Shown: positions 30,498 to 32,928 of the stretch, in pieces
Numbering within the stretch: position 1 is the first letter of the stretch
Layout of the letters: each line of letters starts with the position of its first letter
Assembly: GCA_016785955.1 (NCBI GenBank)
Contig: JAEUWH010000011.1
Coordinates: 62,001 to 126,000, forward strand
Direction of reading: 5' to 3'
From: Pseudobdellovibrionaceae bacterium
Lineage (GTDB): Bacteria; Bdellovibrionota; Bdellovibrionia; Bdellovibrionales; Bdellovibrionaceae
Length of the DNA stretch: 64,000 bases
Made by a program: the position numbers and the translations under genes
The notes under the pieces: model-generated
What the model saw: the letters and a program-made list of their open reading frames with translations, nothing else
What the model was told of the DNA's origin: nothing
Database searches by the model: none

Positions 30498-31400
30498 ATG
30501 GCTGGTTCAAGCTTGTTAACATTGATCGATGATATTGCCACAATTTTAGATGATGTTGCGGTACTGACCAAGGTCGCCGCAAAAAAAACATCTGGTGTAT
30601 TGGGCGACGACTTGGCCCTGAATGCTCAACAGGTTATCGGAGTGACCGCCGACCGAGAACTTCCCATCGTGTGGGCAGTATGCAAAGGCTCGCTGGTTAA
30701 CAAAGTCATTCTTGTCCCACTGGCACTACTCATCGCCAGCTTTGCCCCCTGGTTAATCACGCCCCTGTTGATGGTCGGCGGAGCCTACCTTTGCTTCGAA
30801 GGGTTTGAAAAAATTTGGCATTTGATTTTTCCAACAAAAGAAACGGCCCAGCACGAGGCCGAGCATCGCCAGCATTTAACAATGACTCCTGAAAAAATGC
30901 TAGAATTTGAAAAAGAAAAAATTAAAGGCGCCGTCCGCACCGATTTTATTTTGTCGGCCGAAATAATCGCCATTACTCTGGGAACGGTTCAAACATCCAC
31001 ACTCAGTATCCAAGCCGCCGTACTGACAGGAATCGCCACAATCATGACGATTGGCGTGTATGGATTTGTTGCGGTGATTGTAAAAATCGACGATATGGGA
31101 CTACACCTAGTGACGACCGGAAAAAACTCAACATTTAAAACCGCTTTAGGTAACGGTTTACTGAAGCTGGCTCCCCTGCTGATGAAGTTCTTATCTGTCG
31201 CTGGCACAGCCGCTATGTTCTTGGTTGGTGGCGGCATATTCCATCATGGAATTCCATGGCTGCATCATTTGTCCGAATCTTTAGGAGCAAATGCTTTTAT
31301 GAGCATGATCTTCGATGGTGTCGCCGGAGTTATCGTGGGCTTACTTTGCTTTCTCGCTGTTTCAATGATTCATAAAGTAAAAAAAGCGAAAGTCGCTTAG
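30498..31400 (+). CDS. DUF808/YedI membrane protein
   Basis: 300 residues of the DUF808 (YedI) family: [21 protein letters not shown] at the N-terminus, [17 protein letters not shown], and about six membrane segments (about 75-105, 155-185, 190-215, 228-255 and 275-295). A charged loop with GFEKIWH lies between. The function of the family is unknown. AAAAGGAAG lies before the ATG. The gene is followed by the c-di-GMP RNA region. Confidence 0.88.
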
Positions 31401-31705
31401 GGATCGATTTCAAATAGTCGCCCCCCTCTGTCCTTAATTTCTTTCGCTTTAATCAGCTCTCCCTAAGCTCACTTCGAGACAGTTTTTTTTCAAAATAAAA
31501 CAAAAAAGAAATCACAGTGAAGTCTTTGTGTCGAACTTCTCAACAACTATCAACAGTTTTATCAGAATGATACAACTTATTGAAAAGATTGGATTTTTAC
31601 AAAAACATCTTCTAGACTAAGATCATATCCAGCATGGATGTTGGACGGATCGCAGACGGAAATTGTAGAACCATTAATTTTTTCAAAGGAGGTTTCCTTA
31701 AGGTA

Positions 31706-31929
31706 GATAAACGTTAGTTTATCCTTCCTTTGCCCAAAGGCAAACTTTACGAAAGTAACGGACGCAAAGCTAGAGGGACTACGGTGTAATAGCCTTGTCT
31801 GCCAGCTACCAAAGGTAAGAACCCGAGGGAAATTCGAGGTGTCAAATGGAAGGAAGATCATATATATTCATGGATTGGTTTCATTCCCCTTAGCCTGAAG
31901 AACATCATTGAGGATGACTTCAGGCTTTT
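31706..31929 (+). ncRNA. Stand-alone c-di-GMP-I (GEMM) riboswitch RNA
   Basis: The GEMM-I marks are exact: P1 CCTTTG (31727-31732) pairs with CAAAGG (31810-31815); GGCAAAC (31739-31745); a TTAC-GAAA-GTAA hairpin with a GNRA loop; GGACGCAAAGC (31760-31770); then a P3-type region ending GCCAGCTACC. A perfect GATAAAC/GTTTATC hairpin (31706-31723) stands immediately 5'. The transcript ends at a terminator (31892-31929). The next gene is on the other strand, so no gene is controlled in cis. This matches the organisation of the very abundant attack-phase riboswitch RNA reported in B. bacteriovorus (merRNA), which may store c-di-GMP. Class is certain; the trans role is inferred. Confidence 0.9.
31892..31929 (+). 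terminator. Terminator of the c-di-GMP RNA
   Basis: AGCCTGAAG (31892-31900) pairs with CTTCAGGCT (31918-31926), with an inner CATC/GATG pairing, followed by TTTTA. It may also end the opposing gene at 31948. Confidence 0.8.
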
Positions 31930-31947
31930 ACTTTTCTCTCAAAAATT

Positions 31948-32928
31948 TTAGTTATGAATATCGGAAGTCCGCAAAAATATATACTTAGGCGGAGTCTCGT
32001 GCTCGCCCACTTGTTTTAAAAATTTCAACACCGGCATCGACAAAGCCTCAGACGTTCGTTCTATCATGATGACACCGCGATTGGGAAGTGTGGGCGTGTG
32101 AATCTTGATTCCGGTCGCATGTTTTTTTAGCCATGTCTCTAGGGGCACAGAGGGCTTTTCTAAAGAGTCCTTCACCATAAAATTCATTCCATAAATATAC
32201 AGCCTGGCCCCAGGCTCGGCCCGGGACAGCGCCTTAAACAAAACGTCAGAAACTTTTTTCGTATAAGAAAACACTCCAAAAAATGAAGATGCCAGTTTGT
32301 ACCGCGGTATTTCTTCGTCCGGAATGTCCTCAAACAATCGATCCTTCATCAGTTTCATTTTATCTGTTTCCGGGATCACGCGTCTGACTTTGTAGGTGAT
32401 CCCAACAGAATTTGGCTTCAGTTGAAACGGCCGCTCGGCCAATCGATACATCATTTCAAGGTCACGGTCGCTGGCCCCCCTCAGGCGATCTTTCAATGCG
32501 TCCTCGGCATGCTCCAAACGTGTCCAGCCTTGCTGTTCGCGAAGGTTTAGACTGCTGAACATGATCTGAGCGCGCATTTTAAATTCTACATCCAGGTCAC
32601 GGCCAGAACCATAAATAGACTCCAGTGCGCCACCGTCTCCGGTTCCAAAATCGATGTAAAACTCCTCGGGCCGCAGCTGGAAAAGATCACGAATAAATGA
32701 TTTTTGGGAAAAGACATTTCGTACAACCAATCCCCCCGCATATTCTCCAAGTATTCGACTTGTCTCAAAAGCATTTTGAAAAACCACCGGGCTGGCCTTA
32801 GCACTGTTATAAAACTCATCGCATTGTGAACCACGCCCCCACGATTCATAAGCCAATCCGTTTAATCCCACAACAAGCCATAAAAGATAAATGTAAAATC
32901 GAGTCACAACAAAATAATCTGAATGCAA
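31948..32928 (-). CDS. Exported methyltransferase-like protein
   Basis: Up to 326 residues. A hydrophobic leader (FYIYLLWLVVGLNGLAYES, about 12-30) suggests export. The core has a SAM-type glycine motif, FYIDFGTGDGGALESIYG at about 90-107, and later strands LYIYGMNF and GVIMIER that fit a class I methyltransferase. No lipobox is seen. The start is uncertain: the longest frame begins with TTG at 32928, but a GTG at 32907 gives a cleaner signal peptide; neither has a good ribosome site. With the lipoprotein at 12924 this is the second predicted extracytoplasmic methyltransferase-like protein in the window. No neighbour hints at a substrate. Confidence 0.65.
   Translation of the reverse strand: MHSDYFVVTRFYIYLLWLVVGLNGLAYESWGRGSQCDEFYNSAKASPVVFQNAFETSRILGEYAGGLVVRNVFSQKSFIRDLFQLRPEEFYIDFGTGDGGALESIYGSGRDLDVEFKMRAQIMFSSLNLREQQGWTRLEHAEDALKDRLRGASDRDLEMMYRLAERPFQLKPNSVGITYKVRRVIPETDKMKLMKDRLFEDIPDEEIPRYKLASSFFGVFSYTKKVSDVLFKALSRAEPGARLYIYGMNFMVKDSLEKPSVPLETWLKKHATGIKIHTPTLPNRGVIMIERTSEALSMPVLKFLKQVGEHETPPKYIFLRTSDIHN

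Follow-up and report, generated by a model that had tools for sequence, protein, structure and literature searches.

The window, that is, the whole 64,000-nt stretch of DNA analysed here, carries a stand-alone c-di-GMP-I RNA that is almost certainly, to judge from its sequence, the ortholog of merRNA from Bdellovibrio bacteriovorus and so a further member of an already known RNA. Very few riboswitch aptamers are known to work outside gene control; merRNA, whose role has been a proposal since 2013, is one of these, and it is far more widely spread than published: what was a Bdellovibrio curiosity becomes a widespread RNA, present in one copy per positive genome in several classes, whose non-aptamer parts are conserved like the aptamer. 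The best explanation, and in our opinion probably the right one, is that the RNA stores c-di-GMP and that binding remodels its conserved flanks for a partner. The features of the locus are the following:

31560..31572 (+): inverted repeat TATCA-N3-TGATA, located before the candidate promoter; each of the six genus members has it, with differing centres, and it occurs once in the 64-kb window
31589..31618 (+): candidate promoter TTGGAT, 18 nt, TAGACT, its aligned place kept in genus members as judged by eye
31625..31930 (+): merRNA ortholog at its probable full length, about 305 nt, with the start estimated from the promoter position and the end from the terminator
31685..31692 (+): conserved AAAGGAGG element, without a start codon at usable distance, recognised by AGGAGG counts in relatives
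31706..31723 (+): 7-bp hairpin GATAAAC-GTTA-GTTTATC, folding alone at -6.5 kcal/mol; a hairpin with other letters in many relatives
31723..31728 (+): P0 5' strand CCUUCC (closing helix), pairing with 31848-31853, with compensating changes
31727..31732 (+): P1 5' strand CCUUUG, with GGCAAA (31739-31744) and CAAA (31843-31846) as alternative partners
31729..31813 (+): c-di-GMP-I (GEMM-I) aptamer with canonical pocket bases, RF01051, A47 and not the G47 of RF03167
31810..31815 (+): P1 3' strand CAAAGG, changed in relatives
31821..31840 (+): small hairpin (ACCCGAG...UUCGAGGU) lying between P1 and P0; other hairpins stand in for it among relatives
31848..31853 (+): P0 3' strand GGAAGG, with compensating changes
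31872..31893 (+): conserved C-rich element GGAUUGGUUUCAUUCCCCUUAG directly before the terminator, from conservation and a genome scan
31892..31937 (+): intrinsic terminator with a 9-bp stem, an inner 4-bp stem and a T-rich tail, present in every fold tried

A covariance search with the Rfam c-di-GMP-I model (RF01051, GEMM-I) gave the match at 31729-31813 a score of 61.6 bits (gathering score 35; E for the 64-kb window 1.3e-9), and this copy was the sole c-di-GMP-I match across the whole 4.34 Mb genome. The Rfam scan of 31395-31960 returned no family at E<=1 besides c-di-GMP-I. The preliminary description, made from the letters, had credited the aptamer with all GEMM-I marks, and the search bore it out, with GGCAAAC, the GAAA tetraloop, GGACGCAAAGC and P1 all in place. 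The binding pocket has the canonical bases G20, A47 and C92, the numbering of A47 and C92 in the window aptamer being the one that we take to apply. Position 20, the first G of GGC, is a G both in the window copy and in those family copies that were listed; it has been described as a selectivity factor, and an A there marks cGAMP-binding GEMM-I relatives. Because G20 and A47 are canonical in the window copy, c-di-GMP rather than cGAMP is the predicted ligand, and we regard binding of c-di-GMP by the window RNA as very probable. Tested against the c-di-GMP-I-GGC family (RF03167), for which G47 is diagnostic, the window copy scored 49.5 bits, under the cut-off of 59. A copy from another class (L162:538-632) scored best with c-di-GMP-I-GGC, yet has an A where G would be diagnostic; going by this copy, the Rfam division between the two families may not follow ligand specificity.

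The aptamer was described as being followed by a strong terminator, with the next gene on the opposite strand and no target gene behind the RNA, and all three statements hold. The terminator hairpin at 31892-31926 pairs AGCCTGAAG with CTTCAGGCT (31892-31900/31918-31926), encloses a CATC/GATG stem and runs into a broken T tract; a simple terminator scan with a loop limit of 8 missed it and all folds recover it. None of the predicted states lacks the terminator, so termination seems not to depend on the ligand. Upstream, a DUF808 gene (30498-31400, plus strand) ends 329 nt before the aptamer, and downstream lies a convergent ORF (31948-32928, minus strand) with no Pfam or NCBIfam match. The downstream ORFs of six genus members are all unlike one another. 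Rfam classes RF01051 as cis-regulatory, and one could accordingly read the window RNA as an ordinary cis riboswitch, or else as an antisense regulator of the convergent neighbour. This reading is scarcely credible, given that the RNA has its own terminator in every fold and stops about 18 nt short of the convergent gene, that the neighbours vary even within the genus and that an opposite-strand gene stands behind 44/59 family copies, so that no co-transcribed, conserved gene is there to be controlled.

The RNA is longer than originally drawn, probably covering about 31625-31930. The boundaries first given, 31706-31929, leave out the conserved element that begins at 31685, and the RNA likely starts near 31625, downstream of a -10-like hexamer (31613-31618) that aligns as TAGACT, TATTAT or TATGAT in different genus members. 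The inverted repeat at 31560-31572 may be an operator for whatever switches the RNA on. The 5' part of the RNA varies between genera. The 7-bp hairpin abutting P1, suspected earlier to be part of the RNA, is real and lies inside the probable extended RNA; its pairing is retained with different letters in two genus-mates (G062 and G063), the family-wide signal is weak (mean z -0.76), and the hairpin is one among several replaceable hairpins at that place.

The genome G003, which we take to be that of B. bacteriovorus HD100, has its only c-di-GMP-I match at 1,073,868-1,073,951 on the minus strand. The published merRNA of HD100 is a 445-nt RNA at 1,073,741-1,074,185, minus strand (PMC3627812); it encloses this match, and its 3' end falls immediately after the T tract of the matching terminator. 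AAGGAGG, CCUUCC, the aptamer, GGAAGG and GGAUUGGUUUCAUUCCCCUUAG follow one another in this order in both the window RNA and the HD100 RNA. The likeness to merRNA that the preliminary description had pointed out is thus one of both genomic position and non-aptamer sequence. The assignment of the window RNA to merRNA follows from the position of the HD100-like match inside the published RNA, together with the single copy per genome, the order of elements and an aptamer in an RNA without a downstream gene. In a later study, met in a search of open PubMed Central papers, merRNA figures only as a predicted riboswitch that is lowered in stator mutants growing without prey.

The 2013 paper saw no conservation of merRNA beyond the Bdellovibrio lineage (PMC3627812). 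With the covariance model we found one copy per genome in 59/66 genomes of the family, covering 20/20 genera, and, more widely, a c-di-GMP-I RNA in 91/144 genomes from the class and in 137/369 from the phylum, every positive genome having exactly one copy. Because some of the assemblies without a copy are fragmented or incomplete, and the searches of the large sets used stricter filters, these three counts are lower bounds. The comparison took in 122 relatives, and the copies read were 59 from the family, 32 from other families of the class and 32 from other classes. Those of the same class mostly follow one plan, in which an AGGAGG-like element, a pyrimidine-rich strand, the aptamer, a purine-rich strand and a terminator lie within about 100-200 nt. 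Families f22-f26, from other classes, have a plan of their own, with an outer GAAGAGG/CCUCUUC helix, a CAAAGGGGGG hairpin and a hairpin with a T tract. At two loci of this type (L164:1847-2521 and L174:2211-2948) a plus-strand gene resembling QueE, the 7-carboxy-7-deazaguanine synthase, follows the RNA's own hairpin and T tract; in these two translated cases the best NCBIfam match was under its cut-off, and next to many other copies of the f22-f26 type there is a plus-strand ORF of comparable length. Four weak matches in family f12 differ in look and may be ordinary riboswitches. An exact aptamer-core pattern searched in the named genomes gave no match.

We then come to the parts outside the aptamer. 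AGGAGG (31687-31692) was found in 56/59 family copies, compared with 2.8 expected by shuffling, and in 17/32 copies from other families of the class, compared with 1.3 expected. We rejected a genuine ribosome-binding site as an account of AAGGAGG, since a start codon at usable distance is absent and there is no common ORF. The C-rich element (22 nt) has a mean major-base frequency of 0.90, versus 0.79 for the aptamer and 0.57 for the terminator stem. Its 16-nt core occurs with at most one mismatch in 45/66 family genomes, in all places but one inside a merRNA-type RNA or at apparently duplicate contig ends, and a scan of the named genomes matched only Bdellovibrio and Bdellovibrionaceae/Bdellovibrionales records; the element is essentially unique to merRNA-type RNA.

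The preliminary description had suggested a trans-acting or a c-di-GMP-storing RNA. The conservation outside the aptamer bears on the 2013 proposal that merRNA is a reservoir which binds and later releases c-di-GMP (PMC3627812). Free-swimming attack-phase cells of HD100 contain the RNA in huge amounts, about 2x tmRNA, and the Kd of the c-di-GMP-I class is roughly nanomolar (PMC3627812); these values and the lack of a linked gene would suit an RNA that does nothing else, its flanks just stabilising it. However, a sponge would require just an aptamer and stability, whereas the C-rich element is on average more conserved than the aptamer and AGGAGG is kept almost throughout the family. We therefore hold a pure reservoir to be rather unlikely, and argue from the conserved flanks that storage would not be the whole story. 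Storage combined with a conformational change is favoured because storage alone leaves these flanks unexplained, and we lean towards a second function besides storage.

One such function could be antisense regulation, in which UUCCCCUU of the C-rich element pairs with the ribosome-binding sites of target mRNAs. The stretch lies immediately 5' of the terminator, has little or no pairing in several of the predicted folds and is strongly conserved. Yet near-complementary sites in eight genomes were not clearly in excess of a reversed-pattern control, and the matches fell mostly within genes and not at their starts (in the readable part of the matches, those on the minus strand being poorly handled). 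In addition, an Hfq gene was found in 0/4 genomes of the family (G000, G003, G045 and G062), with the control positive elsewhere. We consider this model unlikely, short seeds being a conceivable exception. A titration of CsrA by repeated GGA motifs under c-di-GMP gating is more doubtful still: a CsrA gene is present (checked in the window's genome only) and GGA outside the aptamer is seen 412 times in the family versus 322 expected, but the excess has a mean z of 0.99 and comes in part from AGGAGG and the base-paired GGAAGG, which makes a CsrA sponge very improbable. Both the Hfq-type antisense and the CsrA-sponge models therefore find little support.

In the favoured reading, storage with remodelling of the flanks, the 5' strand of P1 would change partners. 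Two-sided changes among relatives support P1 (e.g. UCUCUA/UAGAGA and CUUUUUG/CAAAAAG) and P0, further examples for the two helices being ACUUCC/GGAAGU, AAUCCUUUC/GAGAGGAUU, CCUCUCU/AGAGAGG, UUCUUCC/GGAAGAA and others. On 27 distinct family pairs the P0 pairing was equalled by 1/1000 shuffles of the 3' strands, a test that ignores relatedness and in which most columns are invariant. The corresponding sub-test in other families (n=18) used a register shifted by one position for the GGGAGG type; there the helices of the individual sequences are the better evidence. For P1, the shuffle test among family copies (n=19) worked on columns with hardly any variation. Covariation is limited because most P1/P0 columns are invariant.

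The 5' strand of P1 can pair with GGCAAA of the pocket through at least 4 bp in 57/59 family copies and at least 6 bp in 51/59. Its other possible partner is the CAA that often stands before GGAAG: CA[AG] was seen there in 33/57 copies, compared with 8.0 expected. In the Bdellovibrio genus, with CAUAU in place of CAAAU, this alternative to P1 is weaker. When the alternative helices of the P1 strand were enforced, the folds stayed no more than about 5 kcal/mol from the free fold, all with the terminator. Such competing states are what one would expect of a ligand-driven rearrangement, although energies alone are no proof. The cost of enforcing P1 and P0 together, about 11 kcal/mol in the ligand-free prediction, counts against the favoured reading, as do the weaker alternative in the Bdellovibrio genus and the limited covariation. 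That AAGGAGG pairs with the C-rich element had seemed likely because other classes carry the outer GAAGAGG/CCUCUUC helix at the same place. We rejected it: the two elements do not visibly covary, an A-C mismatch falls in mid-helix in the family, and the sides change independently, as in G037, G039 and G040, where the 5' element is altered and the 3' C-rich element intact.

Taken as a mechanism, the RNA, if it is as plentiful in the window species as in HD100, would take up a sizeable share of the cell's c-di-GMP and buffer it in the attack phase; proteins would also compete for the ligand, because the genome has 18 PilZ domain matches. Binding of c-di-GMP would then fix P1 (CCUUUG/CAAAGG) over the rival pairings UUUGCC/GGCAAA or CCUUCCUUUG/CAAAuGGAAGG, and the fixed P1 would alter how AAGGAGG and the C-rich flanks are presented to a protein or RNA partner, whose existence we infer. 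A more specific version, which we put forward tentatively and do not expect to hold in full, is that of a phylum-wide, single-copy, gene-free RNA that is refolded by c-di-GMP and acts in trans through its C-rich motif, its AAGGAGG or both, with something other than Hfq or a linked gene as its partner. The conserved parts indicate which bases to mutate for separating the storage of c-di-GMP from an action on something else.

Among known systems the closest is merRNA of HD100 (PMC3627812), which like the window RNA combines a c-di-GMP-I aptamer with its own terminator and has no target gene behind it. The two differ ahead of the aptamer, where HD100 has about 234 nt and the window RNA probably about 105 nt of unrelated sequence, and in their promoter regions. 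The HD100-like 5' domain (L067) is conserved inside the genus Bdellovibrio, is missing from the genus of the window and had no match in Rfam. The 3',3'-cGAMP riboswitches of Geobacter, which are GEMM-I RNAs with A at position 20, are alike in architecture, whereas the window and the listed family copies have G20. The c-di-GMP-I-GGC aptamer (RF03167) is related to the window copy and has G where the latter has A47. With the c-di-GMP-I riboswitches (RF01051) the window RNA has in common the aptamer sequence, the fold and G20/A47/C92; unlike them, it is not placed before a gene, and it adds the closing helix P0 and the conserved flanks.
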